From NCBI RefSeq assembly GCF_020091585.1, contig NZ_CP083582.1:6954536-7018535 (forward strand): a stretch of 64,000 bases of DNA, written 5' to 3'. The position numbers and the translations under genes were made by a program. The notes beneath the pieces are model-generated. The model was given only the letters and a program-made list of their open reading frames with translations. It was not told the origin of the DNA and made no database searches. The DNA comes from Kovacikia minuta CCNUW1 (GTDB lineage Bacteria; Cyanobacteriota; Cyanobacteriia; Leptolyngbyales; Leptolyngbyaceae). Below, one piece after another: positions 29,563-34,221 of this stretch. How positions within the stretch are numbered: the stretch's first letter is position 1; each line of letters opens with the position of its first letter.

Positions 29563-29673
29563 CTAATGCTCACTCGTTGCCCAATGCAACTCATCCAGCA
29601 CGAAACCATGCGCTGAGAAATTAGAGAAGCAACCGTAGGGCTTTTCTCGCTCGACGTAGAAGTAAATTGTCAT
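29563..29673 (-). pseudogene. Truncated NADAR-family gene
   Basis: 36 codons: MTIYFYVEREKPYGCFSNF, then SAHGFVLDELHWATSEH and a TAG. This is the N-terminus of NADAR domains (YFY...PYGCFSNFS..F..DG..W.TSEH), which cleave N-glycosidic bonds of ADP-ribose or riboflavin intermediates. The stop falls where a Tyr (YFQAQKF) is expected. Its ATG overlaps the GNAT TGA by ATGA, evidence of translational coupling in an operon with the next two genes. Confidence 0.6.
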
Positions 29674-30515
29674 GGGTGCTCCTTTGGCTTAAATGAATAT
29701 TCATGCCAGTCACAAACGGGGCGATAACCGATTTTTTGGTAGATAGCGTTTGAGGTGGAATTTGCTAAATCAGTGAATAAAAAACAGCGATCGCACCCCT
29801 GCTCTAAAAGCTTCTGGCTTAAGGCAGCAACCCCAGCCGTTGCATACCCTTTGCGGCGGTATTCAGGGGGAGTGTAAACGGGGGCAATTCGAGCCGCTGT
29901 TGCGGAAAATTGCCGACCGCCAACCATTGAAACGGGAATGCTATCCTCCCACAAATAGGTACTCTGCCGCTTCAACTCAACATCTACTCTCCGTTCAATT
30001 TCGTCATCGCTGATCAGGTCAATTTCAGCATTAAATGCAGCAAACCACTTTAATAACAAGGGGCGATCGCCGGGTATCGCAAGCCGGAGATGCCCTTTAA
30101 CCGTTGTTACAGGTTCTACCTGGGTTAACTGATAGATTCTTGACTCAACTCCTTGTTGATAGGATTGTCTAGTGAGGGATTGCCAAATCTGCGCAAACGT
30201 TTTAGTCTCAGCGACCAAGCCCTCAACCCCTGGTAGTTGCTCGTGTTGTAAATCTTGAGAAATGAGGTTTAAGGCATTCAAATCCTGTACGTGAGACAGC
30301 AGTAAATTGTTTGGAGGTGTGCGGATGGCGATCGCTAGAATCTGATCATTTGTCTGAACAAGTACCAGATAGGGTAGTTCGGGATAACGCTCCGGATAAT
30401 GCAACAGCGTGTGCAGAACACCCAGTAACGCATTGTGTTCTGCCTCGTATTGCAGCAGATAATTTTGAGCGCACTGCCAAAACTCTTTAACGCTATCAAA
30501 TCTTTGGAATTGCAT
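29670..30515 (-). CDS. GNAT-family N-acetyltransferase
   Basis: 281 aa. The C-terminal half is a GNAT fold: IAPVYTPPEYRRKGYATAGVAALSQKLL carries the acetyl-CoA-binding R/QxxGxG/A loop (RRKGYA, near residue 226), and FLFTDLANSTSNAIYQKIGYRPV is the last conserved block. The N-terminal half is a second, degenerate GNAT-like domain. Acceptor unknown. It lies 25 bases after kptA and overlaps the NADAR start, so the three form one leftward operon. Confidence 0.8.
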   Translation of the reverse strand: MQFQRFDSVKEFWQCAQNYLLQYEAEHNALLGVLHTLLHYPERYPELPYLVLVQTNDQILAIAIRTPPNNLLLSHVQDLNALNLISQDLQHEQLPGVEGLVAETKTFAQIWQSLTRQSYQQGVESRIYQLTQVEPVTTVKGHLRLAIPGDRPLLLKWFAAFNAEIDLISDDEIERRVDVELKRQSTYLWEDSIPVSMVGGRQFSATAARIAPVYTPPEYRRKGYATAGVAALSQKLLEQGCDRCFLFTDLANSTSNAIYQKIGYRPVCDWHEYSFKPKEHP

Positions 30516-30540
30516 TTTCGATATCCTCTTTTCGATATCC

Positions 30541-31098
30541 TCAGTTTTGAAGACTCATCACCTCTAAATACTGCGGCGGAACCTCATCCACGAGCCAGAC
30601 CCCATTATCGGAGCAGTAAAACGTGCCCCCAACCTGGTGCATATTTGCAGCCGCGATCGCAAAAATTACAGGACGACCATGCCGCATTCCGACTTTTCGA
30701 GCCGTTTCCACATCTTTAGACAAATGCACGTGATGCCGTGCCATCTTGCGTAACCCTGATTGTAAAATTGCAGGTACCGATCGTTCACCTGTTCCGTGAT
30801 ACAGCACATCCGGTGGGGTTTGCGGTTGTAGTTCCAGATCAACGTCAACACTATGTCCTTGATTGGCTCGAATCCGAGTTCTGGTTTCATCAAATGAAAA
30901 TCGCTGTTTATCATTGTTAGCAACGACTTCTTCTAACTCAGCACGAGTGATGGGAAATTGATGGGCAGCACAAGCAGATAACAGATCATCGACGTTCACC
31001 CAACCCCCGATCGCCAGCGTCAGTCCCAATCGTTCTGGTGCGTGTCGCAGATGTTTGCTGAGGTATTTGCTAATTTTGATCTGCCGCGTTTTGTCCAT
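30541..31098 (-). CDS. kptA: RNA 2'-phosphotransferase (Tpt1/KptA family)
   Basis: 185 aa. Conserved KISKYLSKHLRHAPERLGL (residues 7-25; Arg-His catalytic block), LYHGTGERSVPAILQSGL and HHVHLSKDVETARKVGMRHG motifs. The family removes an RNA 2'-phosphate using NAD+, releasing ADP-ribose 1'',2''-cyclic phosphate and nicotinamide; some members ADP-ribosylate nucleic acid ends. I choose ATG 31098 (MDKTRQ) because GGAGG lies 7 bases before it; an in-frame TTG 18 bases upstream is less likely. Confidence 0.9.
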   Translation of the reverse strand: MDKTRQIKISKYLSKHLRHAPERLGLTLAIGGWVNVDDLLSACAAHQFPITRAELEEVVANNDKQRFSFDETRTRIRANQGHSVDVDLELQPQTPPDVLYHGTGERSVPAILQSGLRKMARHHVHLSKDVETARKVGMRHGRPVIFAIAAANMHQVGGTFYCSDNGVWLVDEVPPQYLEVMSLQN

Positions 31099-31469
31099 AA
31101 CGTTCCTCCACTTCAATCAATCTCCTGCGTGCAAGTTTTGAGAGCATTGCGCTTTCTCAATTACTTGGGGCGCTCCGCTGATGGGTTATTACACACTCTT
31201 AAGGATGGCTACTTCTAAGCCCACCACCCTATTTGCACTCTCCGTTCACAAGCGCCCACTGCTTGCAGTGGCATGGTTCCTCTCGTACTCGTATGTATGC
31301 TCCACAAGTTAGGGTACTCAGAAGATCTATACTACAATATACTACAATTGGGTTGATAGCTTTTCGGCAAATTCTCCCGATGTCGTAGTTTTCACATTAA
31401 TGGAGGATGTTCGCCCATCTTGACCCACATTCGTCGTACCCGAAGTAGATATAGTTAAGCAATTATCCA
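31099..31469. other. Spacer containing rRNA-like segment
   Basis: No gene on either strand. Includes the rRNA-like stretch listed at 31170-31292. The kptA promoter should lie near 31100-31150. The rest (31300-31460) is AT-rich with no recognised feature. Confidence 0.45.
31170..31292 (-). ncRNA. 23S-rRNA-like fragments in permuted order
   Basis: Read on the minus strand, 31273-31292 gives GAGTACGAGAGGAACC (sarcin-ricin loop type, domain VI), followed about 45 bases later by GGCTTAGAAGTAGCCATC and GAGTGTGTAATA (31176-31228), which match the L11/thiostrepton region (helices 43-44, domain II; E. coli GGCTTAGAAGCAGCCATC). In a normal 23S the order is reversed. No intact rRNA surrounds it. Whether it is transcribed is unknown. 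Confidence 0.5.
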
Positions 31470-31637
31470 CAATTGTGCCAACGACTTAAAGAATGAGTTG
31501 AATCAGGAGTGACAACTGAGGAAATTGCTCAGAGCCTGAATCAAGAAGGGTTCTATCCTCCCAAACGGCGCAAAACCTTTAACGCAGAAGAAGTGTGGGC
31601 ATTAATAACGTTCTCATCCTATGCCACCTCTGCATGA
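31470..31637 (+). pseudogene. Recombinase C-terminal remnant
   Basis: The frame reads QLCQRLKE, TGA, then VESGVTTEEIAQSLNQEGF and YPPKRRKTFNAEEVWALI. This resembles the helix-turn-helix near the end of large serine-recombinase-type proteins. One internal stop and no upstream domain: a small relic. Confidence 0.45.
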
Positions 31638-32374
31638 AATCTCACAGGACTATGGGGGCGTTGAGGCTGGCTTATCTCACAGGGTAAGCGTAAGCAGTAG
31701 TGCCACCGACTCGCTTGTAACCACCCCATCAACTCATGATTGGCAAATCCCCGGTCTGCCAACAACATCACATCGGGTGCTCTCGCAACAACCACCGAGC
31801 TTTTCGCAGCAACGGTTGATACGCCTCAAAGGCAACGGTCGCACTGCCATGCTCCAGGACTCGCCATAGCAAGGGCACGGCACGCCCACAACACACTACA
31901 GACAGGTGAATCATGCAATATCGGTTCCACAAGACGGTGGTGTCTAGGGCAAGATACAGACGATGATGACTCCATCCACTCAGTGCTGCCATCACTAAGG
32001 ATCGCGAATTAAATAACCTGCGTAGGTTGGGTTGAGTCTGCGAAACCCAACACCCCCGCAGATGTTGGGTTTCGCAGACTCAACCCAACCTACAAAAGTC
32101 GATGTTATTTAATTCTTGTTCCTAAGGGCAGATACAGATGGCTGACCCGCACTCGTGCATTCCCCAGCCACCGTCGCCATCGCCGTTCTACCCTTTGTGC
32201 TTGGGTTGCCCGACTCGGCACATACGGTTCCCAAGCAGGTAAACTGAGTTATCCGCTATAGAGTAAAGCACTCACCATCCATGCCAATGCTTTCAGGTGA
32301 CGTAAATCTTGAGCACGGCAATATTGACGCAGGCAGCCGAATAATTGACCATACAGTTGGGTAGGGGATGACAT
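31615..32374 (-). pseudogene. IS4-like transposase gene split by a mini-element
   Basis: Starts MSSPTQLYGQLFGCLRQYCR at 32374. After removal of the 32000-32121 element it continues HLYLPL-VMAALSGW...LALDTTVLWNRYCMIHLSV, then GRAVPLLWRVLEHGSATVAF and, in another frame, LADRGFANHELMGWLQ. The DT..LW, RAVP and LADRGF blocks are IS4-type (DDE_Tnp_1). One TAA near the start and at least one frameshift add to the damage. Confidence 0.7.
32000..32121. mobile_element. 122-bp palindromic mini-element with CTAAG duplication
   Basis: Ends GATCGCGAATTAAATAAC and (reverse) GAACAAGAATTAAATAAC are inverted repeats. CTAAG flanks both sides (31995-31999 and 32122-32126). Core: TAGGTTGGGTTGAGTCTGCG hairpin. 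Removing it with one CTAAG restores the transposase frame. The 5-bp target suits IS5-type transposases. Confidence 0.75.
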
Positions 32375-32409
32375 AGTAGATCGCTGTTGTGTGGTAACTC
32401 CAGCCTCTC

Positions 32410-33237
32410 ATGTCTCTCTACCCTTCTCTCTACATCCCATCCCTATTGGCTTTCATTTATTTCTGTCAGGCAGTCACGGACAGCACTTTACTCTCAGAGC
32501 GACAGGCAAAGGAAGAGTTGGCGGCAGCGCACGAGCAGTTGCGTCAGTATGCGTTGCAGATTGAAGAGTTAGCAGCCGTACAGGAACGAAACCATATTGC
32601 CCGTGAAATTCACGATTCACTGGGACATACGCTAACGGCACAAAATATCCAATTACAAACAGCAGCAAAACTCTGGCAGCGCGACCCCAATAAAGCCCAC
32701 TCATTTTTGCAACAGGCACAACCGTTAGCAGCAACCGCGATGCAGGAGGACAGACGATCGGTGAGAGCATTGCGAGAGGATTCAGAAGAACCACCATTGG
32801 AGGAGGCGATCGCCCATTTAGTCAAGGATTTCCAACAGGGAACAGGAATTGCAATCTCAACCTCGATTACAGGACACACCATCATCTGTCCGAGAATGAG
32901 AAAGACGCTTTATCGAATTGTGCAAGAAGCATTAACCAATATCAGAAAATATGCCCAAGCGACCCAAGTCAATATTCAACTCAGTACCACTGCAACCGAC
33001 GTGAATTTAGTGATTGAAGATAACGGTCAGGGATTTGATGCAAGTCAACAAAGCAATGGATTTGGATTGCAGGGAATGCGAGAACGAGTCGCAGCCAGTA
33101 GCGGTACTCTGCAATTGGAAACAGAGCCAGGACGTGGGTGCCACATCATTGTCAAAATTCCCTTTCAGCATCATTCTGCGCGAACGGAGAGAAATCTCAG
33201 TAATGCTCAATCTCTAACGCTGGAGTCTTATTCATAA
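32410..33237 (+). CDS. NarL-type sensor histidine kinase, N-terminally truncated
   Basis: 275 aa. HisKA_3 phospho-acceptor helix AVQERNHIAREIHDSLGHTLTA (His near residue 73), then the HATPase segment with YRIVQEALTNIRKYAQA (N box), VIEDNGQGFD (G1) and GFGLQGMRERV (G2). This is the kinase class that pairs with NarL/LuxR response regulators. Only one possible membrane helix remains (YIPSLLAFIYFCQAV), so the sensor domain is missing; the transposase relic just upstream probably caused this. No cognate regulator follows. Confidence 0.75.
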   Translation: MSLYPSLYIPSLLAFIYFCQAVTDSTLLSERQAKEELAAAHEQLRQYALQIEELAAVQERNHIAREIHDSLGHTLTAQNIQLQTAAKLWQRDPNKAHSFLQQAQPLAATAMQEDRRSVRALREDSEEPPLEEAIAHLVKDFQQGTGIAISTSITGHTIICPRMRKTLYRIVQEALTNIRKYAQATQVNIQLSTTATDVNLVIEDNGQGFDASQQSNGFGLQGMRERVAASSGTLQLETEPGRGCHIIVKIPFQHHSARTERNLSNAQSLTLESYS

Positions 33238-33740: not shown

Positions 33741-33932
33741 GGCTACGGTGTACACACAAGTCGATCGCTGATTCGTTTTCCGAAAACCTGATCCTCCACA
33801 ACCTTGATTTCTCGTTGCCGGTTCTCAATAAGCCGAGATTATTGAGATTTCAGCCAATTTCCAAAGTTGAGGCAGAGCAAGGGTTTCAGGACTTGTGTTC
33901 ACAGATTTCCGACTTGTGTGTACACGGTAGCT
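33741..33932. mobile_element. 192-bp element, copy 1
   Basis: Starts GGCTACGGTGTACACACAAG and ends with its near reverse complement. Flanked by TTATTAA on both sides. Nearly identical to copy 2 (differences only near the right end, CGGTAGCT versus CCGTAGCC). No complete ORF; possibly a non-autonomous element. Confidence 0.7.
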
Positions 33933-33968
33933 TATTAAGGGGGATAAGCCTGTTTCCCCCCTTGTTAA

Positions 33969-34160
33969 GGCTACGGTGTACACACAAGTCGATCGCTGAT
34001 TCGTTTTCCGAAAACCTGATCCTCCACAACCTTGATTTCTCGTTGCCGGTTCTCAATAAGCCGAGATTATTGAGATTTCAGCCAATTTCCAAAGTTGAGG
34101 CAGAGCAAGGGTTTCAGGACTTGTGTTCACAGATTTCCGACTTGTGTGTACACCGTAGCC
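33969..34160. mobile_element. 192-bp element, copy 2
   Basis: Perfect 23-base terminal inverted repeats beginning GGCTACGGTGTACACACAAG; flanked by TTGTTAA on both sides (target duplication). Same internal sequence as copy 1, so the two inserted recently or one was copied from the other. Confidence 0.72.
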
Positions 34161-34221
34161 TTGTTAAGGGGGGTTAGGGGGGATCTCTGAGTGTTGCATC
34201 TTACAGTCCATATCTTTTCAA

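Follow-up and report, generated by a model that had tools for sequence, protein, structure and literature searches.

A short operon in the cyanobacterium Kovacikia minuta CCNUW1 brings together genes for an RNA 2'-phosphotransferase of the Tpt1 family (KptA), a GNAT acetyltransferase and the first part of a NADAR protein. This locus raises the question of whether such genes constitute an RNA-end or ADP-ribose repair module, as was suggested in the first-pass annotation, and of what the noncoding bases in front of kptA represent. The operon lies in a stretch of 64,000 nucleotides (NZ_CP083582.1, positions 6,954,536 to 7,018,535 of the forward strand), the whole of which is called here the window.

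Protein Genes of the Operon

Open reading frames and Pfam profiles confirmed that kptA, a GNAT gene and a NADAR stub are encoded at this site (Table 1). KptA matched PF01885 over the whole domain (186.9 bits vs a cut-off of 26) and the GNAT is 57.7% identical to the one occupying the same position in locus L051. Against PF08719, for which the curated cut-off is 35.1, the stub reached 18.4 bits and covered only profile positions 1-42 of 163, evidencing that the complete domain is absent; the profile search detected this domain intact in loci L003 and L051. The 25 bases that separate kptA from the GNAT gene and the overlap of the GNAT stop by the NADAR ATG (ATGA), both pointed out in the first-pass annotation, were verified in the sequence, and this spacing suggests that the three genes may be co-translated.

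Elsewhere in the genome another kptA is located directly before an intact NADAR gene and a KapD-like 3'-5' exonuclease, and the GNAT is absent from this intact paralogous locus. Up to codon 36 the stub shows 94% identity to the intact NADAR of the genome, and similarity to intact NADAR genes ends at its stop after that codon. Since both the stub before the cut (dN/dS 0.03 over 36 codons) and the window kptA (dN/dS 0.11 vs its paralogue, indicating purifying selection) look constrained, the NADAR break is probably recent.

Table 1. Coordinates of the features discussed (positions in the window, except for the phage locus in the last row).
Feature	Positions	Strand	Remarks
NADAR stub	29563-29673	minus	36 codons, cut by rearrangement
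GNAT acetyltransferase	29670-30515	minus	281 aa, intact; PF00583, E 3e-11
kptA (Tpt1 family RNA 2'-phosphotransferase)	30541-31098	minus	185 aa, intact; Pfam PF01885, E 4e-55
gac-RNA (name coined in this analysis), decayed copy	31122-31324	minus	181.8 bits; one of the 24 model sequences
Closing helix P1, 3' strand	31123-31132	minus	two pairs broken in the window copy
GTPase-associated-centre-like part (H42-H44)	31177-31229	minus	matches own 23S at E 5e-4
Sarcin-ricin-loop-like hairpin core	31275-31289	minus	AGTACGAGAGGAA in 24/24 sequences of alignment A2
TGTAGTAT box 2 (TrcR-type operator/-10)	31329-31336	minus	exact copy
TGTAGTAT box 1 (TrcR-type operator)	31339-31346	minus	exact copy
Remnant similar to the 3' terminus of an HNH gene (in the intact locus this gene lies ahead of the RNA)	31402-31447	minus	alignment A1 with L003
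GAC mimic of Pseudomonas phage pf16	KU873925 29562-29600 (L105 4001-4039)		

A Structured RNA Upstream of kptA

Upstream of kptA, the window and the paralogous locus share a noncoding stretch of about 200 bases, with 186 of 203 aligned bases identical; the kptA paralogues, by contrast, differ at 43% of their synonymous sites. Searching the genome with this stretch revealed a third copy on contig C2, located before a gene encoding a 285-aa protein and a ThiF-like gene, as well as weak matches to both 23S genes.

An alignment of 24 cyanobacterial copies supports a structure composed of helices P1 to P5 plus H42-H44, in which 92.6% of the pair cells are standard and 22 of the 47 pairs show changes on both sides (12.5 in shuffled alignments and 5-10 in slid structures). 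None of 500 shuffles reached any of the measures obtained for the 24 copies, and slid structures paired at 33-49%. When the structure was applied to 98 copies kept out of the model, which may include close relatives of the 24 model copies, 92.0% of the pairs were formed (34-48% in slid structures) and double changes occurred in 32 of the 47 pairs (13-19 in slid structures). Minimum free energy folding of single sequences gave no indication of the structure (z -0.05 and -0.60), so that it is the comparative pairing evidence that leads us to read the conserved upstream stretch as a structured RNA, designated gac-RNA.

In 386 cyanobacterial genomes a DNA search and the covariance model agreed on 25 loci from 22 genomes with at least 162.9 bits, the next best model score being 62.4 bits; as 24 of these 25 hits are the sequences that built the model (the other one is an interrupted copy), the count of 22 genomes depends equally on the DNA search and on the model. 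Genuine 23S genes align with the model at positions around 87-167 only. When 84,980 species were scanned for the motif, 114 stretches were obtained, some of them from the same genomes again, all of which contain the sarcin-ricin motif by construction because they were chosen by it. Of the 80 listed loci, to which the covariance model was applied, 79 fit it at 139 bits or more; the counts by script covered all 114. A motif hit in Anaerofilum (L136), without a model match, was discarded as a chance occurrence. A description of gac-RNA was found neither in Rfam 15 nor in the open literature searched, a scope outside which the key Y-RNA papers lie.

Resemblance to 23S rRNA

The GTPase-associated centre (GAC) and the sarcin-ricin loop of 23S rRNA contact translational GTPases, and both sites are toxin targets. 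At the level of sequence, the folded parts of gac-RNA copy these two elements, and they are given here the helix names and residue numbering of 23S. The 3' half represents the GAC (H42-H44), as found by BLAST of the window copy against the 23S of the same genome, and in keeping with a GAC mimic the pairs of H42 and H43 covary and those of H44 hardly vary. The 5' part holds the sarcin-ricin core AGUACGAGAGGA, closed by a C-G pair and with a GAGA loop, which is unchanged in the 24 copies, as would be expected of a mimic of this loop; covariation is uninformative on the core because it is invariant. In the 23S of the genome both elements are about 1,580 nucleotides apart, and in gac-RNA they are adjacent within 210 nt.

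In the 200-219-nt class of the RNA frames described below, 101 of 102 match the GAC of their own 23S by BLAST and 14 of 102 match its sarcin-ricin region at E <= 0.05, the low number in the latter case being due to the short length of the core. Among the eight loci scanned with Rfam, LSU_rRNA_archaea was detected in the C2 sister copy only (56 bits vs a cut-off of 50), with no LSU match on the other seven or on window positions 30500-32500.

A Family of RNAs With a Common Frame

Weak hits of the model led to the recognition of a common frame consisting of P1, an internal loop with CC(C/U)(A/G)A opposite ACUU, P2 and the sequence UACAUAC, within which the inserts differ. A motif search without a pairing filter produced 204 candidates in the 114 named loci, and P1 pairs at 8-9 of its 9 positions in 146 of these 204 motif-selected cases compared to 38 expected with swapped windows. 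In 119 sources (the window, the 114 loci and four longer stretches) 199 distinct frames were distinguished, their insert classes being assigned by regular expression. Of these, 99 contain the GAC plus the sarcin-ricin core, 39 acceptor-linked tRNA bodies (two with Rfam tRNA scores of 57 and 48 bits), 20 permuted tRNAs, nine 23S H69-H71 (detected by BLAST) and 19 make up a short class. The 13 frames without a class or occurring singly include a single putative "23S GACCGATAGC" frame, and the 12 grouped as "other" include some that are interrupted and a probable false hit (L217). Three or more classes are present in 24 of the 119 sources; the window has one frame only. Judged from sequence, therefore, gac-RNA is one of several RNAs with a common closing frame and inserts that resemble tRNA and 23S rRNA. 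In Scytolyngbya (L057/L143, 4160-4435) a GAC RNA is split by about 70 nt of extra sequence and followed by a NADAR-like start.

Genomic Neighborhood of the RNA

Nine of the 25 loci, and 21 of 51 loci of a second set (51 of the 80 listed motif-scan loci), have eight or more tRNAs on the strand of the RNA; the other loci have few or none. In the 114 loci, for which stretches of up to 8 kb were considered, the commonest neighbor tested on the strand of the RNA was the 285-aa protein (46 loci), followed by ThiF (37), a Ro-like protein (33), NADAR matches (15, of which 14 downstream), kptA (14), PARG (11), L7/L12 (9), GNAT (5), KapD (4) and EF-Tu (2). In L049 (1813-3466) paralogues of L7/L12 (TIGR00855, 106 bits) and EF-Tu (TIGR00485, 688 bits) are located between a tRNA array and the Ro-like gene. 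The recurrent 287-aa and 285-aa proteins, exemplified beside the RNA by L016 9140-10003 and 8049-8906, respectively, had no Pfam or NCBIfam match; for the 285-aa protein, structure prediction reached a pLDDT of only 44 and a PDB profile search gave only two matches with E 0.4.

The order RNA-kptA-GNAT-NADAR, with the genes directly behind the RNA, was found besides the window in three of the 114 loci (L114, L152, and L164), and the NADAR reading frames of these three were inspected. All three genes are open in Scytolyngbya HA4215-MV1 (L152, on the same contig as L051) and in cyanobacterium FACHB-502 (L164), in both of which a KapD-like exonuclease comes next; in Pantanalinema GBBB05 (L114) the order is preserved with an interrupted NADAR. 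Hence, as the gene order recurs in other cyanobacteria, twice with an intact NADAR, the doubt that it might be confined to a single genome no longer holds. The repair module proposed in the first-pass annotation stands insofar as the order recurs and the role fits the enzyme families; on the other hand, the unit appears to be only the protein tail of an RNA-headed island, in which the GNAT is optional and of which the window holds a decaying duplicate. A kptA gene is located within tens of bases after the RNA in L017, L049, L051, and the window. It is present in 18 of the 22 RNA genomes vs 25 of the 364 others, in a Fisher comparison that ignores phylogeny and genome size, and lies within about 2 kb of the RNA in only four of the 18 genomes having both.

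Outside cyanobacteria, a Blastocatellia MAG (L170/L228, a contig of 28,786 bases) combines a tRNA array with a GAC RNA and tRNA frames, and its Ro-like protein shares 70% identity with that of cyanobacteria. The RNA was detected in only one of the 147 genomes of this class, and the locus may reflect transfer or mis-binning.

TrcR-Type Operators

In Anabaena the repressor TrcR has been described (PMC10272220) to repress a tRNA array together with genes for RtcB, GNAT, TIGR02452 (PARG-like) and HNH proteins; TGTAGTAT is reported there as its operator, overlapping the -10 element, and translation inhibitors are reported to relieve the repression. The promoter of the window RNA carries a putative TrcR operator formed by two exact boxes (Table 1). 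In 33 of 112 RNA copies the motif is preceded at 20-100 nt by an exact box, compared to 0.9% of random 80-nt windows. The 79 copies without an exact box nearby would be expected if these are transcribed from further upstream in the array.

State and Origin of the Window Copy

In the window RNA two P1 pairs and one P5 pair are broken and two bases of the GAC are missing. Neither a tRNA nor a further frame adjoins the RNA (the two tRNAs of the window are about 10 and 24 kb away), and the other two RNA copies of the genome sit in islands with further frames. The window copy is thus read as a detached partial duplicate of islands present elsewhere in the genome, in which kptA would have been kept and the RNA and NADAR would be failing; as an RNA it is probably no longer functional.

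A Predicted Ro-Like Protein

The Ro-like protein is predicted to adopt the Ro60 fold, a helical-repeat ring plus a vWA domain. In a Foldseek comparison of the predicted structure with the PDB, the ten best matches were all Ro60 (E 7e-9 to 9.5e-7, the next one being 1.7e-3), for a model of modest confidence (pLDDT 68.8, pTM 0.41). The match to Rsr (2nvo) extends over 398 residues with Z 14.6 and an rmsd of 8.8, and other top matches cover the vWA domain only. Pfam detected VWA models and no TROVE match at E <= 0.01, and a profile of the protein had no match in a PDB sequence search.

Bacterial Y RNAs are encoded with a Ro orthologue, and the same association was found for gac-RNA, to the extent that the predicted Ro60 fold is taken as such, in 21 of the 22 RNA genomes vs 7 of the 364 others (Fisher 1e-27, phylogeny and genome size being ignored). 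The exception is genome G062, and several of the Ro-like matches are fragments or contain a stop. Rfam Y_RNA and YrlA had no match on window positions 30500-32500, on eight loci or on the L054 frames. The internal loop of the frame, compared by eye, differs from the vertebrate (not bacterial) Ro site published in PMC4726728, given there as a 7-bp helix with a bulged C and a three-nt bulge.

Putative GTPase-Center Mimics in Phages

The H43 sequence of 23S rRNA was detected in 64 stretches of viral contigs (L230-L293, e.g., L264, L262, L279), 63 of which do not continue as 23S; at least three tRNAs lie within 3 kb in 40 of these 63. H43 is intact in the viral mimics, an extra domain precedes H44, and H42 covaries, forming 6.37 of its 7 pairs vs 3.96 after shuffling in the 35 distinct stretches with a recognizable H44 strand. 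Since these H43 stretches are non-23S and often tRNA-adjacent, and their H42 pairs form beyond the shuffled expectation, phages seem to carry GTPase-center mimics of their own (one from phage pf16 is given in Table 1). The sarcin-ricin core was not found in the viral H43 stretches, neither the frame motif nor the GAC plus sarcin-ricin motif had hits in the viral contigs, and five viral loci scanned with Rfam contained tRNAs and sub-threshold hits only. A sub-threshold match to YrlA, a Y RNA-like family, was observed in the phage tRNA array near the GAC mimic of L262 (2270-2339, 31.6 bits vs a threshold of 69).

Possible Function and Alternative Explanations

The best explanation of the window operon, to which we assign a probability of roughly 45%, is that an island responding to translation stress, with a ribosome-mimicking RNA at its head, was copied in part and that this copy is now decaying. 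A role in translation defense is suggested because the RNAs copy translation sites and occur with a Ro-like protein, tRNA arrays, RNA-end/ADP-ribose enzymes and a stress operator. Translation stress would relieve a TrcR-like repressor, and the RNAs would be made and then released from the transcript; the Ro-like protein would bind the common frame, and agents directed at a copied site, such as ribonucleases, ADP-ribosyltransferases or docking factors, would meet in the respective insert a decoy or a damage sensor; KptA and NADAR would clear 2'-phosphates and ADP-ribose from damaged RNA. Among the functions considered, a decoy would be the likeliest, a sensor the next and a scaffold a further option. 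In PMC7790460 a tRNA-like Y RNA was proposed as a competitive inhibitor of an anticodon nuclease. Weighing against this explanation are the negative Rfam results for Y RNA and YrlA on the scanned frames, the LSU match in one of eight loci only, the difference of the internal loop from the vertebrate Ro site, the location of kptA near the RNA in just four of 18 genomes, genome G062 with its RNA but no Ro-like protein, the 79 copies lacking an exact TrcR box, the single-sequence folding and the modest confidence of the Ro-like model.

A more general formulation can be offered tentatively, with less confidence than the reading of the window itself: that the Ro-like protein carries interchangeable RNAs, each copying one vulnerable site of translation (GTPase center plus sarcin-ricin loop, H69-H71, anticodon arm, tRNA elbow/acceptor), which would be induced when translation is under stress, serve as decoys or sensors and be linked to repair by KptA and NADAR, and that phages with tRNA arrays carry their own GTPase-center mimics in the same conflict.

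Alternatively, the RNA could act in cis as a leader for kptA and further genes, in which the 23S mimic would sense free ribosomal proteins or factors and P1 would hide the Shine-Dalgarno sequence. This is suggested by the C2 copy, where the 3' strand of P1 continues into GCAGGAGATTACTATG, by the four loci with kptA immediately behind the RNA, and by the fact that rRNA mimicry in leaders is already a known principle, reportedly described by Meyer in 2018, a work cited in PMC11109978. A leader is, however, unlikely, given that the RNA often sits between tRNA genes, that the distance from the motif to the start of the 285-aa gene, among the listed loci with both, is 291-1235 nt and so reaches well past P1, and that the Shine-Dalgarno sequence of the window kptA lies outside P1. 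The L7/L12 and EF-Tu paralogues in the L049 island, together with the L12 and EF-Tu genes counted above among the 114 loci, would fit a scaffold for a spare ribosomal stalk, in which the RNA binds L10/L11 as a free GTPase-activating particle or backup part; yet most loci show neither protein within the 8 kb or less examined, and the tRNA and H69-H71 inserts on the same frame would be needless for a stalk, so that we regard this explanation as improbable.

It has also to be considered that the protein operon might serve RNA-end/ADP-ribose repair as an independent module, the adjoining RNA being incidental. In RNA-bearing genomes kptA is mostly located elsewhere, the NADAR gene is disrupted in both the window and L114, out of four loci with the order RNA-kptA-GNAT-NADAR, and KptA and NADAR fit known RNA-repair contexts (PMC9503650). 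Even so, an incidental RNA is countered by the recurrence of the whole order in three further genomes, by the NADAR match downstream of the RNA in 14 of the 114 loci and by the permanence of the RNA beside kptA even in the detached window copy, and this alternative seems to us rather unlikely. Finally, the decay of the window copy, the unremarkable folding of single sequences and the interruption of some frames (L057/L143) would agree with rRNA pseudogene fragments and dead tRNA genes beside an ordinary RNA-repair operon. Such an origin, already disfavored, is highly implausible in view of the compensatory changes in sequences outside the model, the joining of the GAC and the sarcin-ricin core, distant in 23S, in a fixed order in 22 genomes, and the presence of unrelated inserts within one common frame.

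Relation to Known Systems

The novelty of the translation-stress island favored here is the RNA class, and the enzymes belong to known families. Ribosomal-protein leaders that mimic rRNA are a known kind of element and share with gac-RNA the rRNA mimicry in an mRNA leader position; unlike them, the RNA described here has sites inside tRNA arrays, a conserved frame and the GAC together with the sarcin-ricin core. A close parallel in composition, as outlined in PMC7790460, is that of Ro60/Rsr with the bacterial Y RNAs (YrlA; rsr-yrlBA-rtcBA operon), which likewise combines a Ro-fold protein, small tRNA-mimicking RNAs and RNA-repair genes in a regulated operon. Here, in contrast, each island has several RNAs on one frame with 23S-like as well as tRNA-like inserts, tRNA arrays are included, the scanned frames had no Rfam Y/YrlA match and the internal loop is unlike the vertebrate Ro site.

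The trn array of Anabaena 7120 under TrcR resembles these islands in being a cyanobacterial tRNA array with the TGTAGTAT operator, a response to translation stress and GNAT, TIGR02452, and HNH genes in the regulon; an rRNA-mimic RNA is not among the elements described in the corresponding part of PMC10272220. In a search of plasmids only Dolichospermum matched among cyanobacteria, in a collection that may lack the Anabaena plasmid. Plasmid pAfl69 of the culturable strain Dolichospermum flos-aquae CCAP 1403/13F contains both the GAC and the H69 frames, for which RNAs of about 210 and 187 nt would be expected, and other frames would give RNAs of about 140, 126 and 80 nt in the strains that have them. 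The KptA/NADAR systems of RNA repair and NAD-ADP-ribose conflict have in common with the operon the enzyme families and the proposed clean-up of RNA ends and ADP-ribose (PMC9503650), but here a ribosome-mimic RNA stands at the head and a GNAT in between.

If the interpretation is correct, functional centers of the ribosome have free-standing RNA replicas in bacteria and, separately, in phages, a mimicry known for tRNA and not described, within the literature searched, for the GAC plus the sarcin-ricin loop. The role of tRNA arrays and bacterial Ro proteins would then become directly testable in culturable cyanobacteria, and small natural mimics of ribosomal sites might be used as tools.

Other Features of the Window

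Two further elements were observed in the window. A near-perfect inverted repeat at 32019-32096 (GGTTGGGTTGAGTCTGCG...), for which Rfam returned only sub-threshold miRNA and viral-element matches, is perhaps a small mobile hairpin element. In the open reading frame at 33815-34177 a segment (MPVLNKPRLLRFQPISKVEAEQGFQDLCSQISDLCVH...) occurs twice, and this duplicated stretch may be noncoding.
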